Assembly (NCBI GenBank): GCA_024401115.1
Contig: JAKSLP010000003.1
Span: 1-64,000 of the forward strand
Source: Bacteroidaceae bacterium
GTDB taxonomy: Bacteria > Bacteroidota > Bacteroidia > Bacteroidales > Bacteroidaceae
DNA length: 64,000 bases
Direction of reading: 5' to 3'
Shown here: positions 4,690 through 20,592 of the stretch, piece after piece
How positions within the stretch are numbered: position 1 is the first letter of the stretch
Layout of the letters: each line of letters opens with the position of its first letter
The notes under the pieces: generated by a model
Told to the model about the DNA's origin: nothing
The model's database searches: none
Seen by the model: only the letters and a program-made list of their open reading frames with translations
Made by a program: the position numbers and the translations under genes

Positions 4690-4695
4690 ACGAAA

Positions 4696-5817
4696 TTACT
4701 CCTTTAAGAAATCATCGATAATACTCATTGACTCGTGTCTGAACTTATCGAGCAGCTGGTACGTTTCTTCTGGTATGTTGTAATCCTTTAGAGGATCATA
4801 ATCGGATGTTCTTTCTAATAAATGATCCATCAAATTAAACTGCCCTAATAGAGAAATAAAACGAGCACCTCCTCTTTTATGATTGGCCACAACCACAAAT
4901 GGTTTATTAAAGAGAATAGAAAATACGCAGGCATGGAATGAATCAGTTATTACAAATTCGGCATCTCTAAACCCTGCAAGCCACTCTTCTACTGGTGGCT
5001 GAATTCTTTCTTCTGCGGCTTTAGAGAGATCATCAGCACAGCCAACATACAAAGGTGAAAGGCCTTTTGATTTAGCAATTTGTTCAATAAAAATCTGTTT
5101 CTCCTCATTCTTATCCAGAACATAAACAAGCATTTTAGTTTTACTTTCTGCGTAACCACTATTATTAATTAATGACAGATAGTCTTCTTTATGAAGTAAT
5201 AGAGTTGGATCCAAAGCATGAACAGCATTCACACCCAAATATTTATCACACAAATCAACGCCCGATTTTTCACGTACGGAAATATAGTCAAATTTTTGTG
5301 CCAATTTCTTTATATCTTTTGTCATGCTTTCGCTATACTCCCATACATCCGTACCAAATGAAGCTGCATAAGCCATACGCTTAATGTTCCAATTTTTAGC
5401 GAACATCAAGAATGCATTTCTAACATCAGACTCATGCGCTTTAAAATAATAAGGGCGCCAAACCTGATCACTTCCTACAATAATAGCGTCATAATCCGTT
5501 GAACGTATCTGTGTTATAGCTCTCGGATCAATAGGAATATACTTGTTGAAAAAGACTTTTGTGTTCTTCTCTATCAGTTCTGCACCTTTATTCCACTTCC
5601 TTTCCGGTAGAAACGAAAATCCATCACCTTTGAGAAATGTAGTAAAGGTTCTTTTGAGAGAGGCTAAGATATTATGAAAACTATAATAATATCTGAAAGG
5701 TCGTGATATGAGTTGAACACTGCATCCCCTCCGTTTAATTATTTGAGTTAATGCGTATGATTGTAATATTCCACCATAATTGGCATGCAGGGGTAAAGAT
5801 AAAATAGCTACTTTCAT
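4696..5817 (-). CDS. polysaccharide pyruvyl transferase family protein
   Basis: This is a 373-residue protein from the ATG at 5817 (MKVAILSLPLHANYGGILQ). A start 24 codons upstream would add a hydrophobic stretch not expected in this cytosolic family. The N-terminal N-Y-G-G-I-L-Q-S-Y-A-L glycine-rich motif, the central G-S-D-Q-V-W-R and the C-terminal D-S-F-H-A-C-V-F-S motif are all characteristic of the polysaccharide pyruvyl transferase fold. The predicted role is transfer of pyruvate from phosphoenolpyruvate to a sugar of a surface polysaccharide as a ketal, though some family members have other roles. A -7 box (TACCTTTG on the minus strand) lies at 5939-5946. The downstream neighbour is the FrhB-like gene, a frequent partner. 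Confidence 0.82.
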   Translation of the reverse strand: MKVAILSLPLHANYGGILQSYALTQIIKRRGCSVQLISRPFRYYYSFHNILASLKRTFTTFLKGDGFSFLPERKWNKGAELIEKNTKVFFNKYIPIDPRAITQIRSTDYDAIIVGSDQVWRPYYFKAHESDVRNAFLMFAKNWNIKRMAYAASFGTDVWEYSESMTKDIKKLAQKFDYISVREKSGVDLCDKYLGVNAVHALDPTLLLHKEDYLSLINNSGYAESKTKMLVYVLDKNEEKQIFIEQIAKSKGLSPLYVGCADDLSKAAEERIQPPVEEWLAGFRDAEFVITDSFHACVFSILFNKPFVVVANHKRGGARFISLLGQFNLMDHLLERTSDYDPLKDYNIPEETYQLLDKFRHESMSIIDDFLKE

Positions 5818-6023
5818 TATTACATTATAATGTTCTACCAATAAAAGAAAATGATAATAAAAATACAGAGTTGTTACCCTCATAAGCACAAGGGTATGGT
5901 GTAAACGCCCTCATCTGTCTCTTTATCATAACTCTCCACAAAGGTACTATATTTCTTCAATATAATCGGCATGAAAATAAAAAACAATTATTTGCAATTA
6001 ATATTAAGATATAATAATAACGA

Positions 6024-7040
6024 TTAATGTCTATCTCTATATCTCAACAAAAGACTAAACGCTTTATCTCTAATAATTTTATTTATTAATAGACTTTGAA
6101 AAGGTGAATATAATAGAACAGAGTCAAAACTAATCATCCAATTAGAAAAAGATAAATATTTAACAAGAATACCACGCAACTTTTTATATTGCTTTATATC
6201 TGATTCATCTATCTCAACCCTTGGCAAAGCTAACAGGCATGATAATGATAATAATTGATAAGCATAATAAAAAATATAGCAGCTGCTTCTGTTTTCATTT
6301 AATAAAGGAGATACCATTGATGCGATTTTCGCACGGCTTTTAAAACTTTTGGAATGGATTGTTGATTTCATAATACCATCAGGATTCATTCTGTAATAAT
6401 AAGTGGTTGAAGGAATGACAACATGAAGAGTGACATATGGTAAAGTACGTATGTTCCATATATGATCCTCATAAATATAGCCCTTATCAAAATAGAGTCC
6501 GTTATGGATGATAAAATCTTTCTTTATCAACCTATTCCATGCAGTTCCCATAAAATGCATAAACAGCAACGAGTGCTGATAATCACAGTTGGATTCGAGC
6601 ATTAACATACTAGATTCCGCATAATTGTCACTTTCATTAACGCCACAATATCTGCCAGTTATTATTTCAGCTTCAGGAAATTGCAAAGCTGCAGCCACAA
6701 AAGTAGAAATGGCATCCGATCTAATCAGATAATCATCGCTATCTATAAAAAAGACATATTGCCCATTTGAATTAATAATCCCGGTATTGCGAGCAGAGGA
6801 CAGTACTTCATTAAAAGTTTTATTTATCACCTTAAAACTAATCGGGCCACAATAAGATCCTAAAATTCTATCTACCACTGTCATGCTAGAATCTTGCGTG
6901 TCATCATTAACTATAACACATTCTAATTTGGCATAATCTTGAGCTATTACAGAATTTAAACAATCTTCCACATATCTTTCCACATTAAATACTGGTATAA
7001 TGATTGAAACCAGTATTGAATTACCCGTTGAATTAATCAT
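6024..7040 (-). CDS. family 2 glycosyltransferase
   Basis: This is a 338-residue GT-A-fold glycosyltransferase. The nucleotide-binding start V-S-I-I-I-P-V-F-N-V lies at residues 11-20, S-S-A-R-N-T-G at 81-87, and the metal-binding acidic motif F-F-I-D-S-D-D-Y at 97-104 (D100, D102, D103). Family 2 enzymes use UDP- or other nucleotide sugars to extend lipid-linked glycans on the cytoplasmic face. The donor and linkage cannot be read from the sequence. The gene has its own promoter at 7099-7130 and is followed by the pyruvyl transferase pair. It is strongly A+T-rich. The C-terminal hundred residues are helical and weakly conserved, as is usual. Confidence 0.88.
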   Translation of the reverse strand: MINSTGNSILVSIIIPVFNVERYVEDCLNSVIAQDYAKLECVIVNDDTQDSSMTVVDRILGSYCGPISFKVINKTFNEVLSSARNTGIINSNGQYVFFIDSDDYLIRSDAISTFVAAALQFPEAEIITGRYCGVNESDNYAESSMLMLESNCDYQHSLLFMHFMGTAWNRLIKKDFIIHNGLYFDKGYIYEDHIWNIRTLPYVTLHVVIPSTTYYYRMNPDGIMKSTIHSKSFKSRAKIASMVSPLLNENRSSCYIFYYAYQLLSLSCLLALPRVEIDESDIKQYKKLRGILVKYLSFSNWMISFDSVLLYSPFQSLLINKIIRDKAFSLLLRYRDRH

Positions 7041-7098
7041 ATTATAAGAAAATGTACAGAAGCTTTGCTTCTAAAAAAACTATTGTTACAATTTTGTG

Positions 7099-7130
7099 CA
7101 AAAATATAAAAAAAAAGGTTTAGAAAGCAA
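7099..7130 (-). promoter_or_regulatory. Bacteroidetes-type promoter of the leftward glycosyltransferase
   Basis: On the minus strand a TTG at 7128-7130 is followed after 21 bases by TATTTTTG (7099-7106), matching TAnnTTTG. Transcription would start near 7090, about 50 bases before the ATG at 7040. Confidence 0.6.
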
Positions 7131-7226
7131 TATACCTATATAATTTGTTTAATGGGCCATCATTTTATACAATCTTAATTCTATTTTTAATAATTCTTTG
7201 TATATTTGCAACAAGAGAAAAAGGTC

Positions 7227-8219
7227 ATGAATTCCCGATGGTATATGAACAAGTTGAAATTATCTTATATAATACCCGCATTTAATGTAGAGTCATTTCT
7301 GAAACAATGCGTAGAGAGTCTCTATTGTCAAGATATTTTCATTGACGAGTTCGAGGTTATCATTATTAATGACGGTTCAATGGATAGCACCATGGTAATC
7401 GCGGAAAAGTTGAAAAGCAAGTATAATAACATCATACTTATCAACCAAGAGAATCAAGGTGTTTCAGCAGCGAGAAATACGGGACTAGAGAAAGCCACTG
7501 GCATGTTTATCTGTTTTGTAGACGGAGATGACAAACTAGCACCAAGCACCATCAAAATACTATTGGATAAGGCCATAACGCATGATTTAGAAATAATCAG
7601 AGGTAATTATACTAGATTTTCATCCGATGAAGAAATTATAACGAAAGAAGGAACTACGCAATTTGTTGTTAAAGAAGGCGAAGACTGCTGGGATATTTAC
7701 AGCAAAAAAGATTGTGGCGTTTATTTAAATATCTATAAAACTGATTTTCTAAAAAGAAACCAGTTAAAATTCATGAAAGGAATTAGTATGGGAGAAGATC
7801 TTCTTTTCACAACCTCATGTTATAATTGCTTAAAACACTCTGGATATTTAGACCTTACTTTTTACCTGTACCGATACAATATAAATTCCTGCCTGCATAC
7901 CATTAATATAAAAAAACTATCGGATTGTGCGATTGTATTAAAAAAGCTAGGGGATATTTCCGATAATTCCACAGCTAAAAGCAAATACTTCTTAAACATA
8001 ATTATTGCGCAACATACCTCCAATATTTTATGGTACTTGTCACATCATAAATGTATATTTGAGAAACGAAATGAGCTCATTCCATTGCTAAAGGAATGTG
8101 TTAGACATAATCATTTTGGTCATGATATAAAATCATCTATAATACACTATTTTCTGATTAATCATCCTTATTTCTATATTTGGTTAAGATATCATACTGC
8201 AAGGAAGAAATACGAATAA
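7227..8219 (+). CDS. family 2 glycosyltransferase
   Basis: This 330-residue GT-A enzyme has L-S-Y-I-I-P-A-F-N-V near residues 12-21, I-N-D-G-S at 47-51, A-A-R-N-T-G at 81-86 and the acidic motif F-V-D-G-D-D at 97-102. The start was set at ATG 7227. An in-frame TTG at 7206 lies inside the -7 box TATATTTG (7201-7208) and cannot be the start of a normal leader, while an ATG at 7245 is a second possibility. The gene opens a rightward glycosyltransferase run. It is A+T-rich like its neighbours. The predicted role is adding a sugar to a lipid-linked surface glycan; donor specificity is unknown. Confidence 0.85.
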   Translation: MNSRWYMNKLKLSYIIPAFNVESFLKQCVESLYCQDIFIDEFEVIIINDGSMDSTMVIAEKLKSKYNNIILINQENQGVSAARNTGLEKATGMFICFVDGDDKLAPSTIKILLDKAITHDLEIIRGNYTRFSSDEEIITKEGTTQFVVKEGEDCWDIYSKKDCGVYLNIYKTDFLKRNQLKFMKGISMGEDLLFTTSCYNCLKHSGYLDLTFYLYRYNINSCLHTINIKKLSDCAIVLKKLGDISDNSTAKSKYFLNIIIAQHTSNILWYLSHHKCIFEKRNELIPLLKECVRHNHFGHDIKSSIIHYFLINHPYFYIWLRYHTARKKYE

Positions 8220-8260
8220 ATAATCATTGACCTACCTAGTACCAATCTATTAAAAATAAG

Positions 8261-9370
8261 ATGATTGATATTGTATATTATAAATCGGATTTAAGACGAA
8301 TAGGAGGAATAGAGAGAATTTGGATAAATAAAATGAATTATTTATCCGACAATCCCAATTTCCAAATATATGCATTAACATACGATCATGGCACTAATGA
8401 TTTTATATATCCTTTATCATCCAAAATAAAGCATATAGATTTAGGCGTTTTTATGTATCGGGTTTATAAATACCCACGCATAATTCGCGCTTTTTTGATT
8501 ATTTATAAGAATTTATTACTTTTCATTAAATTACAGATAGTTCTTTGGAAGCTAAAACCCGACTTCCTCATTATTGACAATACTTTTAACTCTTTATTTA
8601 AATATATAAAAATCTCTGGGAAAATAGTAGCAGAGTCTCATACCGCAAGATCTTATCTTTATAATGAGACTAAGCCAAACAGGTTAAGAAACCTATTTGA
8701 TGTTTATGAAAGGAAAGCAGATATTGTCGTAGCACTGACTGATGGTGATGCCAAAGAATGGTCAAAAGCTCATAACACTAAGGTAATTCCCAATTTTATA
8801 GAAAAAAGGCCGCTTCCGTCTCGTACAATTCTCTATAAAAGAGTTATTTCTGCAGGACGACTGGTTACCCAAAAGAGACAAGAGCATCTTATCCTGGCTT
8901 GGAAAAAGGTAATTGAGAAACATCCTGAATGGATTCTTGATCTTTATGGAGAAGGGGTATTGTACGATAAACTTCTGGCTTTAATAAAGGACAATGGCTT
9001 GGAAAATAATATTAAGATCCATCGCCCTACTAACACCTTCTTTGAAGAACTTGATAAAAGTGATTTCTTTGTCCTCTCTAGTTTGTATGAAGGATTTGGT
9101 TTAGTAATTGCAGAAGCAATGATGAGCGGATTACCTTGTATATCATATAACTGTCCTTATGGGCCTGGAGAATTGATTCATAATCATGAAGATGGTATTA
9201 TTGTAGCAAACGGAAACATTAATGATTTAGCATGTGCAATTAATTGGATGATAGAGAATCCGGATAAAATAATGGAGTATGGCAATAAAGCCTATTCAAA
9301 CATTCAAAAATATACTGCAGAATGTGTACTCCCTCTATGGAGCTCTTTTTTTATAGAGAGCCAAAAATGA
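8261..9370 (+). CDS. family 4 glycosyltransferase (GT-B fold)
   Basis: This is a 369-residue retaining glycosyltransferase. The N-terminal half carries G-G-I-E-R-I near residue 15, which shapes the acceptor site. The C-terminal half carries the donor-binding S-A-G-R-L-V-x-Q-K motif and the E-x7-E signature in S-L-Y-E-G-F-G-L-V-I-A-E-A (E277 and E285). It belongs to the same subgroup as the genes at 9461, 10608 and 14982, all sharing a C-P-x-G-P-x-E/D-I motif after the E-x7-E. The protein acts in the cytoplasm on lipid-linked glycans. The gene follows the GT2 gene by 41 bases with no obvious promoter, so the two are probably co-transcribed. Confidence 0.88.
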   Translation: MIDIVYYKSDLRRIGGIERIWINKMNYLSDNPNFQIYALTYDHGTNDFIYPLSSKIKHIDLGVFMYRVYKYPRIIRAFLIIYKNLLLFIKLQIVLWKLKPDFLIIDNTFNSLFKYIKISGKIVAESHTARSYLYNETKPNRLRNLFDVYERKADIVVALTDGDAKEWSKAHNTKVIPNFIEKRPLPSRTILYKRVISAGRLVTQKRQEHLILAWKKVIEKHPEWILDLYGEGVLYDKLLALIKDNGLENNIKIHRPTNTFFEELDKSDFFVLSSLYEGFGLVIAEAMMSGLPCISYNCPYGPGELIHNHEDGIIVANGNINDLACAINWMIENPDKIMEYGNKAYSNIQKYTAECVLPLWSSFFIESQK

Positions 9371-9402
9371 AGGCATAATTACACACAATTAATCAGTTAT
9401 TA

Positions 9403-9433
9403 TTGCTTCTAAAATTTATTCTTTGTATTTTTG
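9403..9433 (+). promoter_or_regulatory. Bacteroidetes-type promoter of the GT4 operon
   Basis: A TTG at 9403-9405 is followed after 20 bases by TATTTTTG (9426-9433), an exact TAnnTTTG match. The ATG of the next gene is at 9461, leaving a very short leader. The TTG inside the -7 box is in frame with that gene and would mislead a start-codon caller. Confidence 0.75.
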
Positions 9434-9460
9434 CATAAAATTGACAATCGGAGTTGTACG

Positions 9461-10591
9461 ATGAAAAAAATTGTATATTGCACACCGTCACTTTATATAG
9501 CCGGAGGAGTGGAAAGAGTTCTGACAACCGAAGTAAACTGGTTGGCAGAGAATACAGACCATGACATCACTATCATTTTAACTGATGGCGATGACAAGAA
9601 ACCGTATTATCCACTTTCTCCTAAAATCCACATAATCAATCTCAACATAAACTTTGAACAGATTTGGGGAAAATCATTCCTTAAAAAAGGGCTTATATAT
9701 CTTAACCTGCAACGAAAGTATAAAAAGGAACTTACAAGGACATTATTGGAGATAAGACCCGATATCACCATTTCCCTTCTTAGAAGGGAAATTAATTTCA
9801 TCTGCGACATAAAAGATGGAAGTAAGAAATTTGGGTGGCTACACATCACACGAGGTAATTACCGGAATTTTGAACCTGGACAAACCAATTTTATCAAAGA
9901 CCTTTTTAGTAAATTCTGGATGTCCTCTTTAATCCATCAATTAAAAAAACTGGATCAATTCATTGTTTTAACAGAGGAAGATAAAAAAAACTGGAGTGAA
10001 ATCGAAAAGGTTATCGCAATTCCAAATCCTTTACCATTTATTACGGAAAAGAGGAGTAAGCTAACAAGAAAGCAAGTACTCTCCGTTGGTCGGTATTCGC
10101 ATGAAAAAGGCTATGATATGCTACTTGAGGCTTGGAGCATAGTTCACAAGAAGCACCCTGACTGGGTTTTACAGACCTATGGTTCTGGCAATAAAGAGCC
10201 TATCGAGGAGCTGGCAAAACATTTAAACCTTGGTGGAAGTTGCATAATTAACGGGCCAACAGATAACATCATTGATAAGTATTGCGAAAGCAGTCTGTAT
10301 GTTTTAAGTTCCCGATTTGAAGGGTTTGGAATGGTACTGGTAGAAGCCATGTCATGCGGTCTACCATGCGTTAGCTTTGCATGCCCATGTGGTCCAAAAG
10401 AAATATTGGACAATGGACAAACTGGATTGTTAGCAGAAAATGGCAACATCCAAGATTTAGCTGATAAAATTAATCAAGTTATTGAAAACCAAGACCTTTT
10501 ATTGAATTTAAGACAAAAAGCATTAATGAAAACTAATGCATACAAAATTGAGATTATCATGAAACAATGGCTAAATTTACTGAATAATTAA
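9461..10591 (+). CDS. family 4 glycosyltransferase (GT-B fold)
   Basis: This is a 376-residue protein from ATG 9461 (MKKIVYCTPSLYIAGGVERV). It has the acceptor-side G-G-V-E-R-V, the donor-side S-V-G-R-Y-S-x-E-K-G-Y-D motif, and the E-x7-E in R-F-E-G-F-G-M-V-L-V-E-A (E287, E295), followed by C-P-C-G-P-K-E-I. It closely resembles the products of the genes at 10608 and 14982, pointing to duplication within the locus. This is the first gene of an operon with the two downstream genes (16-base gap, then a 4-base overlap). The predicted role is cytosolic sugar transfer from a nucleotide sugar during surface polysaccharide assembly; the sugar is unknown. Confidence 0.88.
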   Translation: MKKIVYCTPSLYIAGGVERVLTTEVNWLAENTDHDITIILTDGDDKKPYYPLSPKIHIINLNINFEQIWGKSFLKKGLIYLNLQRKYKKELTRTLLEIRPDITISLLRREINFICDIKDGSKKFGWLHITRGNYRNFEPGQTNFIKDLFSKFWMSSLIHQLKKLDQFIVLTEEDKKNWSEIEKVIAIPNPLPFITEKRSKLTRKQVLSVGRYSHEKGYDMLLEAWSIVHKKHPDWVLQTYGSGNKEPIEELAKHLNLGGSCIINGPTDNIIDKYCESSLYVLSSRFEGFGMVLVEAMSCGLPCVSFACPCGPKEILDNGQTGLLAENGNIQDLADKINQVIENQDLLLNLRQKALMKTNAYKIEIIMKQWLNLLNN

Positions 10592-10607
10592 CGCTCAATT
10601 GTAAAGG

Positions 10608-11762
10608 ATGAAACTCGTTTATTTATATAGTAATTTTTGGATTGCGGGAGGAGCTGATAGGGTACTCATAGAAAAAGCCAACTATCTGGCTGATTTCTAT
10701 CATTATGACGTCACCATTATCACTGATTCACAAGACGGGAAGGATTTCTTCTTCCCTCTTTCTTCCAATGTAAAACATATAGATCTTAACATCAACTTTA
10801 CTGTACAATACGAATTTAATCTCATAAAACGATTCTTTATCTACCGATCATTAATGAGACGATACAAGGAGCGTCTTTCCAAGGTCCTATTAGAAATCAA
10901 GCCTGATATTGTCATTACTACTTGTGGAAGAGAATTGGACTTCCTGGAAGACTTACACGATGGGAGTATAAAGGTTGGAGAATCACACATAGCAAAAGAC
11001 TATATTAGGAACCTTCACTTATTAGAAAAGAAAGGCTTTCTGCACAACATGGTCGCAAAATATTGGAGGGGGAAAATGGAACGAGCTATAGAAAAACTGG
11101 ATGAATTTGTTGTGCTAACACCCATGGATGCTAATAGTTGGAGTATAGTCAGGAGTTCAAAGGTTATACCTAATTCTATTCCATTTCTTCCTAAAGAACA
11201 TAGTACCTGCAAAAATCACAAAATCATCTCCGTTGGAAGACTAAGTGAGCAAAAAGGATATAACCGATTAATAGATGCATGGGCTTTATTAGCTAACAAA
11301 TATAAAGATTGGGCTTTAGATTTATATGGTGATGGTGAAGAGCATGATGAATTAGTCAACCACATTAAAGAAAAAGGTGTTGAGAACAGTTTCATCATCC
11401 ATAAGCCCACAAAAGATATCGCTTCTAAATATTCAGAAGCTTCTATCTATGTAATGTCATCCCGCTTTGAAGGATTTGGCATGGTATTAATTGAAGCTTT
11501 AGCTTGTGGAGTTCCATGCATTAGTTTTAATTGTCCGCATGGCCCCTCTGAAATCATTGAGAATGGAGTAAATGGTTTCTTAGTAGAAAATGGTAATGTA
11601 AAACAATTAGCAGAGTCTTTAGAAAAACTTATGATTGATGAGAAGGAAAGAATTAACATGGGAAAAGCAGCTTCTCAATCAGTTGAAAGATTTTCAAAAG
11701 ATCGAGTAATGAGAATGTGGAATGATCTATTTACTTCAATAATAGAGAACAAACGAAAATGA
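10608..11762 (+). CDS. family 4 glycosyltransferase (GT-B fold)
   Basis: This is a 384-residue paralogue of the preceding gene's product. It shows A-G-G-A-D-R-V in place of A-G-G-V-E-R-V, then S-V-G-R-L-S-E-Q-K-G-Y-N and E-x7-E in R-F-E-G-F-G-M-V-L-I-E-A, followed by C-P-H-G-P-S-E-I. The gene starts 16 bases after the previous stop and overlaps the next start by 4 bases (ATGA at 11759-11762), so it is translated as part of one operon. It is a retaining GT-B enzyme by family; donor and acceptor are unknown. Confidence 0.88.
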   Translation: MKLVYLYSNFWIAGGADRVLIEKANYLADFYHYDVTIITDSQDGKDFFFPLSSNVKHIDLNINFTVQYEFNLIKRFFIYRSLMRRYKERLSKVLLEIKPDIVITTCGRELDFLEDLHDGSIKVGESHIAKDYIRNLHLLEKKGFLHNMVAKYWRGKMERAIEKLDEFVVLTPMDANSWSIVRSSKVIPNSIPFLPKEHSTCKNHKIISVGRLSEQKGYNRLIDAWALLANKYKDWALDLYGDGEEHDELVNHIKEKGVENSFIIHKPTKDIASKYSEASIYVMSSRFEGFGMVLIEALACGVPCISFNCPHGPSEIIENGVNGFLVENGNVKQLAESLEKLMIDEKERINMGKAASQSVERFSKDRVMRMWNDLFTSIIENKRK

Positions 11763-12886
11763 AAATTCTATTTCTAATTTATCATGGATTTTCTGATATA
11801 AGCGGAATCAGCAAAAAAATTGCAGCTCAAGTAGAAGGTCTCAAACAGTGTAACCATGAAGTTCATGTTTGTACTTATTCCATAAAAGAAGATGGACACA
11901 GATGCAGATTTATTGATGACGAAATACTTCAAGATTTTGGAAAGAACTGTCTGGCACCTTTCAAAAAGAGAATATGTTACGATAAAGTGTATGAGTATTG
12001 CATTTTAAATGGTATTCAGGCTGTTTATTCTCGTTCATTCCATAATGCCAATCCTTTCACAATCAAGCTGTTCAAGAAATTAAAAAATGCAGGAATCCCA
12101 TGTGTGATGGAGATTCCAACTTATCCTTACGACCAGGAATATCTTGGCGCGGATTTTCGAACACGTTTGGGGACACTGATTGACAAACTATTTCGTCACC
12201 AACTGGCCATGCAAATGAAAGGCATCGTTACTTTTGCTGATGTAGAAACCATTTTTGGGCAGAAAACTATTCGTATCAGTAATGGCATTGACTTTGATGC
12301 GATTCCTATGCGCTCACCAATTCCTAATCCTGCGAATGAAGTGCATTGTTTGGGTGTAGCTGAGGTACATTATTGGCATGCATTTGACCGCTTGATTCAT
12401 GGATTAGGTGAATACTATAAGCAAGCTCGTGAGATAAAAGTGTATTTCCATATTGTAGGTGGCATCGCACCAAGTGATTTAAATGAATGGAAAGAGTATG
12501 TGAAGGAAAATCATATTGAACCATACGTTATATTCCATGGTGCACAGTTTGGCGAGGCGCTTACAGAATCATTCAACCGAGCTGATTTTGGTATTGGCAG
12601 CTTAGGCCGACACCGCAGTGGAATTGATAAAATCAAGACGCTAAAAAATAGAGAGTATGCTGCACGTGGATTAAAGTTCATCTACAGCGAAACTGATGAT
12701 GATTTTGAAACTATGCCTTACATCTTAAAGGCTCCTGCAGATGAGAGTCCTATTGACGTGGAATCTATCATCCGGTTTAACGAAGAATGCAGAATTTCTC
12801 CTGAGGAGATTCGTAAGAGCATTACACATCTGAGCTGGAAGGAACAAATGAGGATTGTAATGGAAAATATAAAAGGCAATAAGTAA
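11759..12886 (+). CDS. divergent GT4-type glycosyltransferase
   Basis: This 375-residue protein has the GT-B outline (N-terminal G-F-S-D-I-S-G-I-S-K-K, central H-I-V-G-G and H-G-A-Q-F-G) but lacks a clear E-x7-E motif. In its place stands S-G-I-D-K-I-K-T-L-K-N-R-E-Y-A-A-R-G, a variant seen in some capsule and exopolysaccharide transferases. It is the last gene of the rightward operon and overlaps the upstream gene by ATGA. The final codons, giving I-K-G-N-K, lie within a palindromic terminator shared with the convergent gene. Function as a sugar transferase is inferred from fold and context; catalytic competence is less certain than for its neighbours. Confidence 0.75.
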   Translation: MKILFLIYHGFSDISGISKKIAAQVEGLKQCNHEVHVCTYSIKEDGHRCRFIDDEILQDFGKNCLAPFKKRICYDKVYEYCILNGIQAVYSRSFHNANPFTIKLFKKLKNAGIPCVMEIPTYPYDQEYLGADFRTRLGTLIDKLFRHQLAMQMKGIVTFADVETIFGQKTIRISNGIDFDAIPMRSPIPNPANEVHCLGVAEVHYWHAFDRLIHGLGEYYKQAREIKVYFHIVGGIAPSDLNEWKEYVKENHIEPYVIFHGAQFGEALTESFNRADFGIGSLGRHRSGIDKIKTLKNREYAARGLKFIYSETDDDFETMPYILKAPADESPIDVESIIRFNEECRISPEEIRKSITHLSWKEQMRIVMENIKGNK

Positions 12887-12904
12887 TCACTTATTGCCTT
12901 TTAT
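12869..12904. terminator. palindromic bidirectional terminator inside two coding 3' ends
   Basis: Perfect 16-base arms (12869-12884 and 12889-12904) are separated by only AATC. The left arm encodes the last residues of the rightward gene and the right arm those of the leftward gene, so both proteins end I-K-G-N-K. The stop codons abut at 12886/12887. A and T runs on both sides make it a plausible two-way terminator. Confidence 0.8.
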
Positions 12905-13750
12905 TATATTATCATCATGATCTTCATAATGTTCTTTAGAAGTAAACAAACCAGAAATTCCTTTTAATGCTTTTCTCAAACGATTCACAAACATACCCAT
13001 TACTCCTCCATCTTTAGCAATGGTACCATTACCAGTTACTGGGCGTACCTTTCTGGTTAATAGGAACTTTAACTTGCCATATGGTTTCATGGCCAATGCC
13101 AATGAGCCATCTTCGCCTCGGATAATATCCGTACGGAATCCATACTTGCGACCTAATTCTGTATGGAATCCAAAAACCATACCTCGGACATTAAGTTCAG
13201 GACGACGAATCTGCTGAACAATCAAATACAGATCGCGGAGCGTCTCATAGCAAAATAAGCTAAATGCAGATTGTTTCTCATCTGGGATGAAACTCCATAA
13301 ACCATAAGCACATACCACATCTTTCTGTTGCAAGGCTTTTACCATGGTAGCAATATATGTTGGAGGATATATGGTATCTGAATCAATACACAAATGATAT
13401 TTACCTCGTGCATGATCTAAGCCACACTGACGGGCATAGCCTGGAGATTTCTTATATTCATTAACATAATTGGCTCCTAAATCCTGCAGCAGTTTCTCTG
13501 TTCCATCCTCAGAACTATTATTCACGACCAGAATCTCTATGGGAAAATCAACCTTGTTGTCTGCTAACGAATGAAGGCAACTTAACAAATGAGTTTCTTC
13601 ATTATGAGCGATAGCAACGACAGAGGCTAAAGGGGGCTGATCTGTATTCAGGTTTGCTATTTTATCACGGACTTCGTTAAAAAGTTCGGGGCGGATACTG
13701 TCAAGAGGTTTTTCGTATGTTTCGAGATATTTTGTGTACCAGTTGCTCAT
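12887..13750 (-). CDS. family 2 glycosyltransferase
   Basis: This 287-residue GT-A enzyme has A-S-V-V-A-I-A-H-N-E-E at residues 42-52, V-V-N-N-S-S-E-D-G-T at 75-84 and the metal-binding C-I-D-S-D-T at 121-126. The H-N-E-E start is typical of enzymes that act on simple acceptors such as lipid carriers. The gene is last in the leftward set after two GT4 genes, separated from the nearer one by 79 bases that contain a fragment of an interspersed repeat. Its C-terminus is formed by the shared palindromic terminator. The role is sugar transfer in glycan assembly; specificity is unknown. Confidence 0.85.
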   Translation of the reverse strand: MSNWYTKYLETYEKPLDSIRPELFNEVRDKIANLNTDQPPLASVVAIAHNEETHLLSCLHSLADNKVDFPIEILVVNNSSEDGTEKLLQDLGANYVNEYKKSPGYARQCGLDHARGKYHLCIDSDTIYPPTYIATMVKALQQKDVVCAYGLWSFIPDEKQSAFSLFCYETLRDLYLIVQQIRRPELNVRGMVFGFHTELGRKYGFRTDIIRGEDGSLALAMKPYGKLKFLLTRKVRPVTGNGTIAKDGGVMGMFVNRLRKALKGISGLFTSKEHYEDHDDNIIKGNK

Positions 13751-13782
13751 TTCTTAATTTTTAGTATGCACTACTTGTTTAG

Positions 13783-13811
13783 AAAGATCTTTCGCTGCGC
13801 TCAAGATGACA
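13783..13811. repeat. fragment of an interspersed intergenic repeat
   Basis: The stretch from about 13783 reads AAAGATCTTTCG and then ends in CTCAAGATGACA, close to the CTCAGAATGACA end of the fuller copies at 18746-18887 and 28089-28205. Only the right half is present here. Confidence 0.5.
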
Positions 13812-13829
13812 AATTAAAGAATGGTTGAA

Positions 13830-14948
13830 TCAGGGAACGATTTGTTTATAAAGTTCCAAAACTTTCTCGGCAGTGAAACGCCAACTGTACAGCTTAACAT
13901 GCTCGAGACCATAGTTCACAGATTGCTGATAATAATCGGCATCAGTCTCCAAACGGAGCATAGCGGCAGCAATCTGACTTTCCTGGTATGGATCAATCAG
14001 GATGGCACCGTCACCGGCAATCTCGGGGATAGCGGAGATGTTACTGCTGATGACAGGGGTTCCGCATGCCATGGCTTCCAGCAATGGGATTCCGAAACTC
14101 TCACGCAAAGAAGTGTAAAGGAATGCCTGTGCACCGCTGTAGATAGCCGGAAGGTCGGTATTGGCAATATATCCGGGTGCAACAATATTCTGGGCAATGG
14201 ATTCAATGCCTAATTCCTTCAAATAGCTGTCGATGATTGCCTGACTAAGGTCAGCAATGAGCAGTGGTGTCTTCTCGGTGCTCTTCTGCAGATACTCGGC
14301 ATAGGCTTTCAGTACACGTTTAGTGTTCTTCTTCGGGTCGGTATTTCCTAGGAAGAAGAAGTATTTCTCGCTACCTATATATTTCTGAACCACTGCCTTA
14401 TAATCGGCAATAGGATGAAAATGCTGACTGAATCCGTTGTGTACGGTTATTACTGTTTCGGCCGATAAACCGGTGGTACGACAGATGTTGTCGCGCTCAA
14501 AATCGGATACAGTAATGACTTTCTTGCATTTGGGCAATATTCTGGGTACTACCAAACGGCGGTAATACCAACCTAAATTCTGGTACAAGGATCGGTTGGC
14601 CCCATCGCGCTTCTCCAGAAAGATGATGTCATGCAGGGTAAGCACCAATGGAACACTACAATTGATAGGTGCAGTGTTACTGGTGCAATGAAGCAGGTCG
14701 GGCTTGATCTGTTTGATAGCATTGGGCAAGCCTACCTGTTCCCACAGCGGATAACTGGGTACCTTAACTTCATGGATATGGAAATTAGGGGTTTCCTGCA
14801 AACAGCGATCGCTGCCAGGAGCCACTAAAATATGATATTCGTTAACGTGATCAATCTGTTGCAACTGACGTACCATCTCCAATACCACAAAATCCATACC
14901 GTGTTTGTTGGGACGGAAGATACGCTGTGCTTCTATAGCTATTTTCAT
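13830..14948 (-). CDS. family 4 glycosyltransferase (GT-B fold)
   Basis: This is a 372-residue retaining glycosyltransferase of a different subgroup from its neighbours. It has H-G-M-D-F-V near residue 17, V-I-T-V-S-D-F-E-R-D in the linker, F-F-L-G-N-T-D-P-K-K-N donor-side motif, and E-x7-E in R-E-S-F-G-I-P-L-L-E-A followed by G-T-P-V-I-S-S. This resembles the mannosyltransferase-like part of family 4, though the sugar cannot be assigned. The gene starts 33 bases after the upstream GT4 gene ends and is probably co-transcribed with it. Base composition is noticeably richer in G+C than the rightward glycosyltransferases, suggesting a different history. Confidence 0.88.
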   Translation of the reverse strand: MKIAIEAQRIFRPNKHGMDFVVLEMVRQLQQIDHVNEYHILVAPGSDRCLQETPNFHIHEVKVPSYPLWEQVGLPNAIKQIKPDLLHCTSNTAPINCSVPLVLTLHDIIFLEKRDGANRSLYQNLGWYYRRLVVPRILPKCKKVITVSDFERDNICRTTGLSAETVITVHNGFSQHFHPIADYKAVVQKYIGSEKYFFFLGNTDPKKNTKRVLKAYAEYLQKSTEKTPLLIADLSQAIIDSYLKELGIESIAQNIVAPGYIANTDLPAIYSGAQAFLYTSLRESFGIPLLEAMACGTPVISSNISAIPEIAGDGAILIDPYQESQIAAAMLRLETDADYYQQSVNYGLEHVKLYSWRFTAEKVLELYKQIVP

Positions 14949-14981
14949 AAGTCTTTGAATTGTCCTTGCAAATTAACGAAT

Positions 14982-16115
14982 TTATTTTGAATTATTGAAC
15001 AAATCCTCCCACTTTTTCATGATTTGGTCTGTGGTATAGCGGAATGAAGCCTTTCGTGCCTGCTTACCCATACGCTGACGAAGGTCTTCATCATCCATCA
15101 AATGACTGAGTTTTTGAGCAAACTCATCAGGGGTGTGAACCAAAAAACCATCCTCACCATCGGTGATAATATCCTTAGGGCCGCAGGGACAATCGAAGGA
15201 CACACAAGGTAATCCGCAGTGCATAGCCTCTGTCAAGACCAATCCGAATCCTTCATACCGGGACGAGAAAGCAAAGATGGAAGATTGCTGATAGATTCTG
15301 GATATGTCTGATTCGTAAGGGTGCAACTGACAATTATCCGCTAGGTTCAGTTGGTCAATGAGTTGCAGGATGGGACTTCGAGGTCCACGACCATAGATGT
15401 GTAATTGCCAATCCGGATGCAGAGGTTGTACCTGACTCCAGATCTGAACCAATCGGTCAAAGCCTTTCTGCCAGGCATAGCGGCCTACTGCCACTACTTG
15501 TTTAGCAGTCAAGGGACTGACCTTGTCGGTTTGGAAACTTAACGGATTAGGTATGGTCACTACCCTATCCAAGTGTTTTTCCCAAGCCATTTTATCCTCA
15601 TCAGTCAACACCACAAGGGTATCTAAACGACGGAGTTGTTGATAGAATTGACTCTGCCAAATTCGGGTAAAAAATCCTCGTAAACGCCAAGGGCCAAAAT
15701 TGACCTGACGATAACTTCCACAGTTCAAATGGGCCCATCCTATTTTCCGGCTTCCATCCTGAATCTTATGAAGAAAATTGAGTTCCCTGCGAAGGGTTGT
15801 TATAACGACATCTGCCTTAATCTTAATGAGTTGCTCTTCCAACATTTGGCGATATCTACGCATCTTTCTTACATAATCGTATAATGCCCTAATTCGGCCA
15901 CCTGAACGGGGATTATAAAATCCGATATTCAGCTGAATAATCCTAACTAGTGGGGAGATGGGATAACTATAGGCCAGTCCTAAACCATCGGTCAGGATAA
16001 TTGTCACCTCATAGCCTAACTGATCGGCCAGATAGTTCGCCTGCCCAATAAGCACACGTTCTATGCCATCAGGATTGCATAAAGTGGGACTGAGATAGAC
16101 AATTTTACGTTTCAT
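14982..16115 (-). CDS. family 4 glycosyltransferase (GT-B fold)
   Basis: This is a 377-residue protein from the ATG at 16115 (MKRKIVYLSPTLCNPDGIERV), chosen because its paralogues at 9461 and 10608 begin at the equivalent residue. Motifs are D-G-I-E-R-V, A-V-G-R-Y-A-W-Q-K-G-F-D, and E-x7-E in R-Y-E-G-F-G-L-V-L-T-E-A, followed by C-P-C-G-P-K-D-I. The -7 box TATTTTTG on the minus strand at 16120-16127 ends only five bases before this ATG, so the mRNA may be leaderless or nearly so; an in-frame ATG at 16160 lies upstream of that box. This is the first gene of the leftward GT4-GT4-GT2 set and diverges from the peptide cassette. Confidence 0.86.
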   Translation of the reverse strand: MKRKIVYLSPTLCNPDGIERVLIGQANYLADQLGYEVTIILTDGLGLAYSYPISPLVRIIQLNIGFYNPRSGGRIRALYDYVRKMRRYRQMLEEQLIKIKADVVITTLRRELNFLHKIQDGSRKIGWAHLNCGSYRQVNFGPWRLRGFFTRIWQSQFYQQLRRLDTLVVLTDEDKMAWEKHLDRVVTIPNPLSFQTDKVSPLTAKQVVAVGRYAWQKGFDRLVQIWSQVQPLHPDWQLHIYGRGPRSPILQLIDQLNLADNCQLHPYESDISRIYQQSSIFAFSSRYEGFGLVLTEAMHCGLPCVSFDCPCGPKDIITDGEDGFLVHTPDEFAQKLSHLMDDEDLRQRMGKQARKASFRYTTDQIMKKWEDLFNNSK

Positions 16116-16147
16116 GACGCAAAAATAGACAAATATTTGGGATTTCC

Positions 16148-16179
16148 TTTGGTAGCTCATAGAAAAAATAGTAACTTTG
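16148..16179 (+). promoter_or_regulatory. consensus promoter of the RiPP-like cassette
   Basis: TTTG at 16148-16151, 20 bases, then TAACTTTG at 16172-16179: an exact match to the Bacteroidetes vegetative promoter. Transcription would begin near 16187, giving a leader of nearly 60 bases before the ATG at 16244. It overlaps the 5' region of the divergent glycosyltransferase gene. Confidence 0.8.
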
Positions 16180-16243
16180 TCGCGATTAATAGTATATACA
16201 ATACAAATTAAGAAAATAACAACTCAATTAAACTATCAAGATT

Positions 16244-16429
16244 ATGGGAAAGAAAGGTATTCCAATGACAATCATGATGCAGGCAGAAACAGCTCCTAAT
16301 GTTGCTCAGCCTATGGGCCCAGATGCTGATTATACTGGCACATGGGGTAGCTTGTATTATGAGAAGGGACAAGCTGTAATGACTACTTCAACTTACAGAA
16401 TTAAGCAGGCTGGTGGTGAAGTCGGCTAA
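16244..16429 (+). CDS. candidate ribosomal-peptide precursor, 61 residues
   Basis: I do not recognise this small protein. It begins M-G-K-K-G-I-P-M-T-I-M-M, has a Pro/Met/Asp-rich middle (residues 18-29), and an aromatic and hydroxyl-rich half from D29 onward: D-Y-T-G-T-W-G-S-L-Y-Y-E, then M-T-T-S-T-Y-R and a Gly-rich tail ending G-G-E-V-G. It has no signal peptide, membrane segment or cysteine. It is the first gene behind a consensus promoter and is followed after 14 bases by genes for an HPr-kinase-like protein, a PqqD-like peptide binder, a nucleotidyltransferase and an ABC exporter. That order is typical for a precursor peptide whose product is modified and exported. The leader/core boundary is unknown. 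Confidence 0.6.
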   Translation: MGKKGIPMTIMMQAETAPNVAQPMGPDADYTGTWGSLYYEKGQAVMTTSTYRIKQAGGEVG

Positions 16430-16443
16430 GTCTAAAATAGAGT

Positions 16444-17352
16444 GTGATTAATAACTACATAGTAGCAGGAATCCCCTTCCGGATTAACTGGAATGAGGAA
16501 TTTTGTACTAAAGAATGGCTGGTTCAATATCAGCCATTTTTAGTATCAGGTGCTGAAGAAAACGCGGCTTTCACCTTTACCTTTTGTGCAGAGGGTTTCG
16601 ACACCCACGGTAAAGAGCTCCTTTACAAGGAGGAAAGCGATGAGCGCTATATGCGCTTCGAAATCTATCAGGACAAGGATCATTATATCTTCTTGGCAGC
16701 TATTACCAAAACTGACGGGTTGCTGTATCATATCGTCACCTCGCGTGACTTTTCCGATGCCCGGTTGTATGTAAATCTGGAGGAGAACGGTAAAGATTCT
16801 GAATTCCTGCCTAAAACAAAATTCATCGCAGAGAACTTTATCCGTATCCTGTTCTCGCAGAATGCTGCTCCTAAACATGTGGTATGCCTGCATGCATCGG
16901 CCATGAGGTATAAGGACAAGGCTTACCTGTTCATGGGACATAGCGGTTCAGGAAAGAGCACGCACAGCCGCCTGTGGCTGAAGTACTTTGACGATACGGA
17001 ACTGATGAATGACGATAATCCGGTGGTGGCTCTGGATGCCGATGGTAAGCCTGTGGTTTACGGCAGTCCCTGGAGCGGAAAGACCATCTGCTATAAAAAG
17101 ATTAACGCTCCGCTGGCGGGTATCGCCCACATCGTGCAGCGTCCAGAAAATAAAATGGTGCCCTACCCTAAATATCCGGCTTACCGGTTCATTCACCGGA
17201 ATGCGTTCGGATTTACCTATCTGTCGGATGGCATAGCGGACGGCATTTATTATACGGTTGAGAAAATCATCTCACAGATTCCAATTTACCAACTGCAGTG
17301 CCGGGCCGATAAGGAGGCTGCGAAACTGTGCAAAAAGACGTTAGTGAAATGA
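16444..17352 (+). CDS. HPr-kinase-like (HprK-related) protein
   Basis: This 302-residue protein starts at a GTG. A beta-rich N-terminal half leads into an HPr-kinase-type P-loop domain: C-L-H-A-S at 148-152, Walker A G-H-S-G-S-G-K-S at 165-172, an acidic L-M-N-D-D-N-P at 188-194 and G-S-P-W-S-G-K at 207-213. True HPr kinases act on a phosphocarrier. Relatives without the HprK N-terminal domain occur in peptide-modifying clusters, where some phosphorylate the peptide (the paeninodin-type lasso kinases), and in PqqD-linked HprK-related systems of exopolysaccharide loci. The position between the small peptide and the PqqD gene suggests that it acts on the peptide. It overlaps the next gene by ATGA. 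The substrate is inferred, not shown. Confidence 0.75.
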   Translation: MINNYIVAGIPFRINWNEEFCTKEWLVQYQPFLVSGAEENAAFTFTFCAEGFDTHGKELLYKEESDERYMRFEIYQDKDHYIFLAAITKTDGLLYHIVTSRDFSDARLYVNLEENGKDSEFLPKTKFIAENFIRILFSQNAAPKHVVCLHASAMRYKDKAYLFMGHSGSGKSTHSRLWLKYFDDTELMNDDNPVVALDADGKPVVYGSPWSGKTICYKKINAPLAGIAHIVQRPENKMVPYPKYPAYRFIHRNAFGFTYLSDGIADGIYYTVEKIISQIPIYQLQCRADKEAAKLCKKTLVK

Positions 17353-17621
17353 GAATAATCGAAGGATTCAGATTGCGCCAGATTGCAGGTGAATACTACA
17401 TCCTGGGCGAGGGACTGAGACAACTGCAGAGCGGGTTCAACCAGGTGATGCAGATGAACGAGGCTGCGGCTTACCTGTGGGAGAACATCGAGGGTAAGGA
17501 TTTTGACGAAGAGACTATTGCCCGACTGCTGATGGCAGAGAACGACTTTACGCACGAGGAGGCTCTGGAGTATGCCAAGCAGACCCTGGAGTGCTGGAAG
17601 AATATTCCTATCATAGAATAA
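17349..17621 (+). CDS. PqqD-like peptide-binding protein
   Basis: This 90-residue protein starts at the ATG at 17349, overlapping the kinase stop as ATGA. The pattern is that of PqqD/RRE proteins: a short beta-hairpin (R-Q-I-A-G-E-Y-Y-I-L-G-E-G), N-E-A-A-A-Y-L-W-E-N-I-E-G before the helices, then D-E-E-T-I-A-R-L-L and a C-terminal helix. PqqD-type domains hold the leader of a precursor peptide and deliver it to modifying enzymes; the B1 proteins of lasso clusters are the same fold. Its presence is the strongest argument that the 61-residue protein is a modified peptide. It is followed after 3 bases by the nucleotidyltransferase gene. Confidence 0.82.
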   Translation: MRIIEGFRLRQIAGEYYILGEGLRQLQSGFNQVMQMNEAAAYLWENIEGKDFDEETIARLLMAENDFTHEEALEYAKQTLECWKNIPIIE

Positions 17622-17624
17622 ACA

Positions 17625-18719
17625 ATGCTGAGAAAACGCCAGATAATGATAGACTTGGTGCAGGCGGCTATATGGAACCGCCCTGCAGATACCAGCCAGT
17701 GGCAGAAGCCGGTGGACTGGAACGGGGTTTATGAACTGGCAAAGACTCAGGCACTGAGGGGCATTGTGATTGATGCCATCCTAAACCTACCTACCGAATG
17801 GCTTCCTGAAAAGAAATGGTATGTGGCCCGCCTGAACCGACTGATGGAAATGGCACAGGACAGTGCACTGCATCTGATGGTGAGCAACGAACTGCTGATG
17901 CGGTTTGAACAGTGCGGAGTACATGCGCTGCTGATGAAGGGTGTGACCATGGCGGCTCTCTACCCTAACCCGCAGTACCGTGCATGCGGTGACATCGACC
18001 TTTACATCGGTCCCGAGAATTACGACCGGGCTATCCAGTTGCTGTGCGACTGGGCAGGTTCTCACCAAACGGATGTGGTGAAGGATGATAAGCATACTTC
18101 CTTATTTTATAAATCCATTGAAATTGAACTGCACCGGATTACGGAGGATTTCTCGGTGCCTAAGTACGACCGGGAATGGCAAAAGTGGACCCGGGAGTGT
18201 CTGGACAATTGCAAGGGCCGGGAGTTTCCGCTGAACTATAACACGGTGTTCCTGTTTAACCATATCTGGCATCATTTCTGCATCTATGGCATCGGTCTGC
18301 GGCAGTTCTGCGACTGGACGCTGTTCCTGCATCATCATGCTAAGGAGATTGACCGCGAGGCGCTTAAGAATGATCTGGAGCGTATCGGTCTGTTCCACCA
18401 ATGGCAGATGTTCGGTTGCGTGGCTGTAGATACTTTAGGGCTGCCTGAGGAGGAATTTCCTTTCTATGATGCGCGTTACCGCAAAAAGGCAGAACGTATT
18501 GTGGACCAAGTGTTTGAGGATGGAAACTTTGGCAAGTCGGGCCGCTGGTTGGCGGGGAAACCCCGTAATTACCTGAAACGCAAGCTTCATTCGGCTTATT
18601 TCTGGTGCAAGCGACTGGCTATGGTATGGCAGTTCTCACCTATTTATGCCACTTACACGGTGCTGGATTATATGAAGTATGGAGTGGGGGTTGTTTTTAA
18701 AGATTTATTGAGAAAATAG
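17625..18719 (+). CDS. nucleotidyltransferase family protein (NTP_transf_5 type)
   Basis: This is a 364-residue protein of the uncharacterised nucleotidyltransferase type. The core shows L-L-M-K-G at 102-106, the two-carboxylate motif C-G-D-I-D-L-Y at 121-127 (D123, D125), and a likely third carboxylate in I-E-I-E-L-H at 165-170. The rest is helical, with a His/Trp-rich segment H-I-W-H-H-F at 213-218. Family members are found beside HprK-like and PqqD-like genes in lasso-peptide and exopolysaccharide clusters, where transfer of a nucleotide or phosphoryl group to peptide or sugar is suspected. Start spacing (3 bases) shows tight coupling with the PqqD gene. The substrate is unknown. Confidence 0.78.
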   Translation: MLRKRQIMIDLVQAAIWNRPADTSQWQKPVDWNGVYELAKTQALRGIVIDAILNLPTEWLPEKKWYVARLNRLMEMAQDSALHLMVSNELLMRFEQCGVHALLMKGVTMAALYPNPQYRACGDIDLYIGPENYDRAIQLLCDWAGSHQTDVVKDDKHTSLFYKSIEIELHRITEDFSVPKYDREWQKWTRECLDNCKGREFPLNYNTVFLFNHIWHHFCIYGIGLRQFCDWTLFLHHHAKEIDREALKNDLERIGLFHQWQMFGCVAVDTLGLPEEEFPFYDARYRKKAERIVDQVFEDGNFGKSGRWLAGKPRNYLKRKLHSAYFWCKRLAMVWQFSPIYATYTVLDYMKYGVGVVFKDLLRK

Positions 18720-18745
18720 CGAATTGTCATTCTGAATACCCCGCA

Positions 18746-18887
18746 TGTCATCCTGAGTGAAACGAACCAACGGTCGCCGTGGGAGGCGAAGCCGAGGTAG
18801 GCAATGGATCTTTCTATATAAGTAGTGGATTCTTTTTTAGTATGACTCCTCGCGAGGTAAGATTCTTCGCATTCGCTCAGAATGACA
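18746..18887. repeat. interspersed imperfect-palindrome element, about 142 bases
   Basis: The element begins TGTCATCCTGAG (18746-18757) and ends CTCAGAATGACA (18876-18887), inverted copies matching at 11 of 12 positions. Inside is a perfect palindrome CCTCGCGAGG (18848-18857). The same ends and inner GCGAG sequence recur at 28089-28205, and a half copy lies near 13800. There is no coding potential. It separates the nucleotidyltransferase and exporter genes. Confidence 0.75.
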
Positions 18888-18911
18888 TTAACATAATTGA
18901 TAATTGTTTTT

Positions 18912-20564
18912 ATGCAAATCAACTGGCAAAAGGATATCAGGACCATTAAGTGGTTGTTCATGACGGTCAAGGGTTTCAAACTGAAATCACTGGCCATCTA
19001 CTTCATGGGTCTGGTGCGTCTGCTGGTGGGTTTGTATTCCATCTGGGTTACCAAGACGGTGATTGATATTGCCACACACAAGACGGATGATAACATGTAT
19101 TTTTATCTGGGACTGATGGTGGCACTGATGGTGGCGCAACTGGTGATTGGTGTGTGCTACACCTGGATGGATGGTATTATCCGACTGAATTACAACAATA
19201 AGATACGTTATCATTTCTTTACCCGAGTGATGCAGAGCCCGTGGACGGGTAAGGACCGCATGCATACGGGTGACGTGGTGAACCGCCTGTCGGGCGATTT
19301 GGGTACGATAGCGGATTTTGCCTGCGGAACTATTCCTGCCTTTCTGCTGACACTGACTCAGCTGATAGCAGCCAGCACTATGCTGTATGTACTACAGCGG
19401 GAACTGCTGTGGGTTATCCTACTGGTGATGCCGGTGACTGCTTTGTTGAGCCGCATCTATGTATTGACCATGCGCCGACTGAACCGCCAGTTGCGTGAGA
19501 ACAGCAGCCGTATGCTGTCGCACCTGCAGGATAGCGTACAGAACCGTATCATCCTGATTGCCTTAGGGGGCATCCGCCAGTCGTTCGATAAATTGCTGAG
19601 TATCCAGTCGCAGTTGGTCAGTCTGACCAAACAGCAGATGCGCTTTTCTATCTTCTCGGGCACCCTGGTGCGTGTGGGCTTCACCGCGGGTTACACCATT
19701 GCCTTTGTGTGGGGTGTATTAGGCATCCGATCGGGTGCGGTGACTTTCGGAACCATGACGGCTTTCCTGCAATTGGTTTCGCAGGTACAAGGGCCTTTTG
19801 CGGATATGGCCGCTCATATCCCAGCATTTATTCATGTGGTTACTTCCTCTGAGCGTATCATGGAACTGCTGCCTGTGGGCAAGCAGTCTATCCTCTCGGA
19901 TGAGGAAGTGCCAATCGAGGGACCTATCGGTATCCGAGTGAAAGACCTTTCGTTCAGCTATGTAAATGAGAGCAGCAACCAGACCCGCGTGCTGACGAAT
20001 GTAAATCTGGATTTCCGTCCGGGCACACGTACAGCCATTGTGGGTGAAACCGGTATCGGTAAGAGCACACTGATCCGACTGATCCTGTCGCTGCTGGATA
20101 CAGATAAGGGTTCAATAACCTTATATAATGACATGGGGGAATGGGCTTCGGACGAGCACACCCGTTGCAACTTCAGCATGGTGCCTCAAGGCAACAGTCT
20201 GTTTAGCGGCACCATCCGCGAGAACCTGCTGATTGGCAATCCTGAGGCTACTGAGGAGCAGATGCATGAGGCACTGACCACAGCGGCTGCTGAGTTTGTA
20301 TTTACCCTACCCCGTGGTTTGGACACCAATTGTACCGAGCGTGGTGCGGGACTGAGTGAGGGCCAGGCACAGCGCATTGCCATCGCCCGAGCCTTTTTAC
20401 ACCGGGGCAGCATCCTAATCATGGACGAGGCCAGCAGTGCTCTGGACGAGGAGACCGAGCAGCGAATCATTGACCGCCTGTCGGCCCGCAAGGATAAGAC
20501 AATTCTTTGGATTACACATCACCGCGCTGTGGCGGAGGCATTGGATGCCATCGTAAGATTATAA
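18912..20564 (+). CDS. ABC exporter (fused membrane and ATPase domains)
   Basis: This is a 550-residue protein from the ATG at 18912. Residues 1 to about 310 form a six-helix exporter membrane domain. The ATPase domain carries Walker A G-E-T-G-I-G-K-S (378-385), Q-loop V-P-Q-G, signature L-S-E-G-Q (481-485, Glu in place of the usual Gly), Walker B I-L-I-M-D-E (501-506) and an H-loop near 536. There is no N-terminal C39 peptidase domain, so if it exports the upstream peptide it does not cleave a double-glycine leader itself. It is separated from the nucleotidyltransferase gene by the repeat element but lies in the same direction and before a strong terminator, so it is probably part of the cassette. 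Confidence 0.85.
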   Translation: MQINWQKDIRTIKWLFMTVKGFKLKSLAIYFMGLVRLLVGLYSIWVTKTVIDIATHKTDDNMYFYLGLMVALMVAQLVIGVCYTWMDGIIRLNYNNKIRYHFFTRVMQSPWTGKDRMHTGDVVNRLSGDLGTIADFACGTIPAFLLTLTQLIAASTMLYVLQRELLWVILLVMPVTALLSRIYVLTMRRLNRQLRENSSRMLSHLQDSVQNRIILIALGGIRQSFDKLLSIQSQLVSLTKQQMRFSIFSGTLVRVGFTAGYTIAFVWGVLGIRSGAVTFGTMTAFLQLVSQVQGPFADMAAHIPAFIHVVTSSERIMELLPVGKQSILSDEEVPIEGPIGIRVKDLSFSYVNESSNQTRVLTNVNLDFRPGTRTAIVGETGIGKSTLIRLILSLLDTDKGSITLYNDMGEWASDEHTRCNFSMVPQGNSLFSGTIRENLLIGNPEATEEQMHEALTTAAAEFVFTLPRGLDTNCTERGAGLSEGQAQRIAIARAFLHRGSILIMDEASSALDEETEQRIIDRLSARKDKTILWITHHRAVAEALDAIVRL

Positions 20565-20592
20565 AAGGGCGATTCTCACGAACCGCCCTTTT
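20563..20592. terminator. terminator after the ABC exporter
   Basis: A 9-base-pair stem (AAAAGGGCG at 20563-20571 with CGCCCTTTT at 20584-20592) has a 12-base loop and A/T flanks on both sides. It lies between convergent genes and can serve both the exporter and the LruC gene. Confidence 0.75.

Follow-up and report, generated by a model that had tools for sequence, protein, structure and literature searches.

A five-gene cassette in the DNA analyzed here, a 64,000-nucleotide stretch from a gut bacterium of the Bacteroidaceae that we call the window, appears to be a RiPP-type operon related to the linear polyphosphorylated peptides (LPPs), in which a kinase guided by an RRE would phosphorylate a peptide with a Tyr-less leader, followed by export. 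We put the probability of this reading at roughly two in three. LPPs, described in 2026 from the Paenibacillus alginolyticus cluster lppAKBSDN, are specified by genes for a precursor, an HprK kinase, an RRE, a SipW-like peptidase, an NTP transferase and an MsbA-like pump (PMC13381572). LppK phosphorylates core Ser3, with one to four phosphates seen, requires a Ser some 15 residues beyond the leader Pro and does not accept S3T; LppS cuts the leader, aided by the RRE, and LppN showed no activity in the heterologous system of that study (PMC13381572). The window cassette shares with these clusters a precursor, an HprK-like kinase, a discrete RRE, an NTP transferase, an MsbA-like pump, adjacent polysaccharide genes and the lack of a cyclase. 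It differs in having no SipW-like LppS, no YxxPxVL...FETxxS leader, Tyr in place of Asp70 in its RRE, and a host from Bacteroidota instead of Bacillota.

Gene order and a counterpart in a related species

The cassette lies on the + strand in the order promoter, 61-residue peptide, HprK-like kinase, PqqD/RRE, NTP_transf_5 protein and MsbA-like ABC exporter; Pfam, motif and pattern matches bear out the five genes and exact promoter of the preliminary description. The promoter (16148..16179, +) is an exact match to the Bacteroidota-type pattern TTTG-N20-TAACTTTG. This pattern occurs at 4 sites in the 64-kb window against 1.24 expected, and so it is the position of the site, not its rarity, that gives it weight. 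Spacing is as tight as had been described up to the nucleotidyltransferase, with 14 bp between peptide and kinase, a 25-bp overlap of kinase and RRE, and 3 bp between RRE and NTP genes. The 192 bp that then precede the ABC gene (18720..18911) hold a dispersed repeat (CATCCTGAGTGAAACGA ... TCGCTCAGAATGACA) for which the same genome gives 58 matches.

The same five genes in the same order were found in Candidatus Minthousia equi (contig G073, locus L052), with a similar promoter site upstream of the peptide gene and overlaps of 4-14 bp at all four junctions. The NTP and ABC genes of L052 overlap by 4 bp where the window has its repeat-bearing gap, and the repeat therefore probably entered an operon that was already tight. 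L052 is the only other locus of the window type found; 2 of 6 genomes of the genus carry one. The organism groups with Candidatus Minthousia in the Bacteroidaceae, not in the Prevotellaceae as had been supposed. Identities between the two loci are 40% for the kinase, 61% for the RRE, 54% for the NTP protein and 56% for the ABC protein.

The putative precursor peptide

The putative precursor (16244..16429, +) has 61 residues, MGKKGIPMT...GSLYY...TTSTY...GGEVG. Direct BLAST across the family gave no convincing match (best foreign E 0.02), and the counterpart was found by synteny after this search had failed to show one. It is a 51-residue peptide, MAKIGVPMT..., at 9057-9212 of L052, whose gene runs 4 bp into that of the kinase. 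Aligned with each other, the two peptides are identical in 18 columns, among them K-x-G-x-P-M-T, GS-x-Y, TTS and GE. Their global alignment score was matched by 4 of 20000 shuffles, and their local alignment by 105 of 20000, which is of moderate significance only. Judging from the counterpart and the same gene order in Candidatus Minthousia equi, the small gene is not a stray ORF. The preliminary description had made its model depend on conservation of this gene beside the other four, and it was kept in the one relative where comparison was possible.

Conservation of the peptide gene also bears on the view that the cassette acts on surface polysaccharide, with the kinase, RRE and NTP protein modifying a sugar intermediate, the ABC protein flipping it, and the small ORF a minor accessory. 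As described earlier, glycosyltransferase genes adjoin the cassette: the polysaccharide gene cluster at 3490-16160 of the window (about 3.5-16 kb) encodes a pyruvyl transferase and several GT2 and GT4 glycosyltransferases. Since the locus adjoins this cluster, a role in polysaccharide metabolism retains some probability; L052 retains the neighboring GT gene, at 60% identity, and stand-alone NTP_transf_5 genes occur in sugar loci of relatives. Nevertheless, we consider such a role unlikely. In L052 the peptide gene is not only conserved but also coupled in translation to that of the kinase, peptides are what RREs bind in the systems studied, and LPP clusters too are embedded in capsule loci (PMC13381572).

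Neither peptide has the YxxP leader motif, KGIP and IGVP being found instead, and neither has an aromatic residue three positions before any Pro. The conserved Pro is kept, preceded at that distance by Lys or Ile and not by Tyr. The full LPP leader motif, YxxPxVLxHQxIxFETxxS, is absent from the window peptide, and the window and L052 peptides have no Ser in common at the spacing from the leader Pro that LppK requires (about 15 residues).

The RRE and a probable change in its pocket

The RRE gene (17328..17621, +) encodes an LppB-like protein that matches Pfam PqqD above the cut-off (E 1.7e-6) and, in a sequence search of the PDB, the lasso RRE TfuB1. LppB uses Asp70 for a hydrogen bond to the leader Tyr and Asn33 to hold a kink at the leader Pro (PMC13381572). 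Alignment of the RREs shows that the Asn matching Asn33 is retained in the window protein, and column comparison places a Tyr (Tyr82 of the 97-aa ORF) at the Asp70 position. This position is Tyr in both loci of the window type and Asp in all 61 other family-level RREs. It is also Asp in 21 of 21 order-level RREs, a set that includes two from genomes of the same family. In a looser set of 54, which also takes in RREs that are fused or divergent, the counts are D 47, E 3, Y 2, S 1 and G 1. Two nearby positions likewise separate both window-type loci from all 61 others, changing from S/T to A and from V/I to F; the first corresponds to the LppB pocket residue V35. This mapping, like that to Asp70, was made by sequence spacing and not from structure.

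The simplest reading of these comparisons is that the RRE pocket and the leader changed together. The switch was probably a single event, because only two such loci are known and they come from related species. A more far-reaching proposal, which we hold only tentatively, is that the RRE and leader jointly switched their recognition chemistry: the Tyr and Phe of the RRE itself would fill the Tyr pocket, a Tyr-free leader would bind, and the product would be exported without a dedicated leader cut, defining a Bacteroidota class of phosphopeptide RiPPs.

The kinase, nucleotidyltransferase and exporter

The kinase gene (16444..17352, +) begins with GTG and encodes an HprK-like, LppK-like Ser kinase in which H150, K171, D190 and D191 are conserved. 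This is the His-Lys-Asp-Asp pattern of lasso kinases, a set of residues that matters in ThcoK (PMC9266682). Searched alone, the window kinase matched no curated family above its cut-off; 12 of 12 scanned kinase homologues matched HprK_rel_A, the best at E 8.5e-7, below the curated cut-off. Sequence searches of the PDB gave the kinase PEPCK-like P-loop matches only, and AlphaFold2 models built from two-row alignments were too poor to use (pLDDT 32, kinase; 51, NTP protein). The preliminary description had named HPr as an unrelated substrate that would undo its model. As far as the assembly shows, at 87% completeness, this case is excluded: no PF00381 match was found there while the controls did match, and a reading as HPr kinase/phosphorylase was ruled out on that ground.

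The NTP_transf_5 gene (17625..18719, +; PF14907, E 1.1e-34) encodes an LppN/PsmN-like protein with GDID and EIE acidic motifs. No relatives were found by sequence search of the PDB or among viral contigs, and phage records gave three weak matches. The LppD-like exporter (18912..20564, +) matches PF00664 and PF00005 only, without a peptidase domain in the Pfam scan, and MsbA models are among its best matches.

A kinase of the H-K-D-D type, an NTP_transf protein and an RRE are also the tailoring set of pseudomycoidin and paeninodin clusters (PsmK/PsmN, PadeK; PMC9266682), and one could read the cassette as a lasso system of the paeninodin type, with the cyclase and B2 protease supplied in trans. 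We regard this as very improbable. Those clusters encode a cyclase and B2 protease, whereas the window has neither, as the preliminary description had noted, and a search of the same genome assembly, 87% complete, gave no B2 homologue (Transglut_core3, PF13471) and one Asn_synthase protein only, on another contig, which was typed by Pfam and which we take for ordinary AsnB. The window peptide has neither a C-terminal Ser nor a Y/WxxP leader motif, and the family-wide version of the module carries a SipW-like peptidase with no cyclase recognized nearby. The lasso reading was rejected for lack of a cyclase or B2 protease in the genome. Because the gene set matches that of LPPs, which need neither enzyme, neither need be thought missing: of the earlier proposals, peptide modification mainly by phosphorylation fits the gene set and kinase motifs, and a lasso system with absent parts is not supported.

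Related genes in the Bacteroidaceae

Of 121 Bacteroidaceae genomes sampled, 94 had LPP-like kinase homologues and 96 had RREs, in most cases alongside a SipW-like peptidase. Most fetched loci have a protein of about 150 residues between kinase and RRE, whose best NCBIfam match, a weak one, is archaeal-type signal peptidase I. Loci of the order kinase-S26-RRE-(NTP)-ABC (among them L054, L124 and L126) resemble the window cassette in their homologous kinase (29-38% identity in the aligned set), RRE (34-41%), NTP and ABC genes; they differ in having the SipW-like peptidase, in having no peptide directly before the kinase, and in that their candidate YxxP peptides are encoded at other sites of the genome. 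On the Butyrivibrio fibrisolvens plasmid pNP243 (L142), kinase, small peptide, RRE, ABC and NTP genes also occupy one region, but the peptide, encoded between kinase and RRE, is a canonical YVKPEL type, an S24/S26 peptidase is present and the gene order is different.

Small ORFs near several family loci have Y-x-x-P about 16 residues before Ser or Cys. A profile of 14 such segments, supplied by six genomes, matched 61 of the 94 genomes with a kinase and 3 of the 27 without one (Fisher 5e-7, uncorrected for phylogeny). Without the six contributing genomes the figures are 55/88 and 3/27 (2e-6), and with genomes divided by RRE instead of kinase 62/96 and 2/25 (2e-7), both likewise uncorrected. 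Within the six genera holding both kinds, the kinase contrast is 14/21 versus 3/11, with p = 0.06 only. In one of the kinase-negative genomes that matched the profile, the WxxP peptide adjoins an RRE. The window genome itself gave no profile match, though it has kinase and RRE.

Gene fusions occur in genomes of the same genus, joining RRE to NTP protein (L107 15694-17064; L109 5385-6758, with an RRE match in L109) and kinase to SipW-like peptidase (L111 16159-17370; L113 1588-2742), which supports action on one common substrate. The RRE-NTP_transf_5 fusions sit beside a radical SAM gene. Another same-genus locus, L110 (G054:C23, 3762-14333), combines in one stretch five or more paralogous genes for YVKP/YVSP peptides, radical SAM-like genes, a kinase and a SipW-like peptidase, and looks like a separate RiPP system. 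In L063, L064, L068, L070 and L143 a sigma-factor-like gene, a small gene, kinase, peptidase and RRE recur together; the small gene often has a signal-like N-terminus, and no cassette-type exporter was recognized directly downstream. This arrangement could be a form of the module with a housekeeping role.

A SipW-like peptidase gene is absent from the locus in both the window and Candidatus Minthousia equi, and none was found elsewhere in the 87% complete assembly from which the window comes. The cassette might accordingly be a decaying LPP cluster that lost its peptidase gene, the remainder relaxing towards inactivity, as the repeat between NTP and ABC genes and the lower conservation of the kinase than of its partners could also suggest. 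This we think quite improbable, given that two species, with 39-60% difference between their proteins, both keep all four enzymes intact and their active sites conserved, and that NTP protein and RRE still share 54-61% identity.

Proposed pathway and significance

What the sequences show directly is the gene content, the operon layout, the conserved peptide, the active-site motifs and the RRE substitutions. The steps that we infer for a phosphopeptide operon, from binding through phosphorylation and its site to sugar addition and export, would run as follows. The 61-residue peptide would be made from the promoter at 16148. The RRE at 17328 would bind its N-terminal K-x-G-[I/V]-P-M-T, the changed Tyr pocket fitting a leader without the usual Tyr, and pass the peptide on to the HprK-like kinase. 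This enzyme would place at least one phosphate on a conserved Ser, either Ser36 (GS-x-Y) or Ser49 (TTS). The phosphate may next receive a sugar, such as a hexose, or a nucleotide from the NTP_transf_5 protein, in line with what has been suggested for PsmN (PMC9266682), and the ABC protein would export the product. As no dedicated leader peptidase is encoded, the peptide would be exported whole or cut in trans.

In 2026 LPPs were described as confined to Bacillota and without an assigned role (PMC13381572); the window cassette would be their relative in Bacteroidota. If this is correct, LPP-like kinase and RRE genes would be present in most sampled members of the Bacteroidaceae, a dominant gut family, along with many candidate YxxP peptides. 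The window cassette would then be a natural specificity variant, in which recognition between RRE and leader could be tested by a few point mutations.
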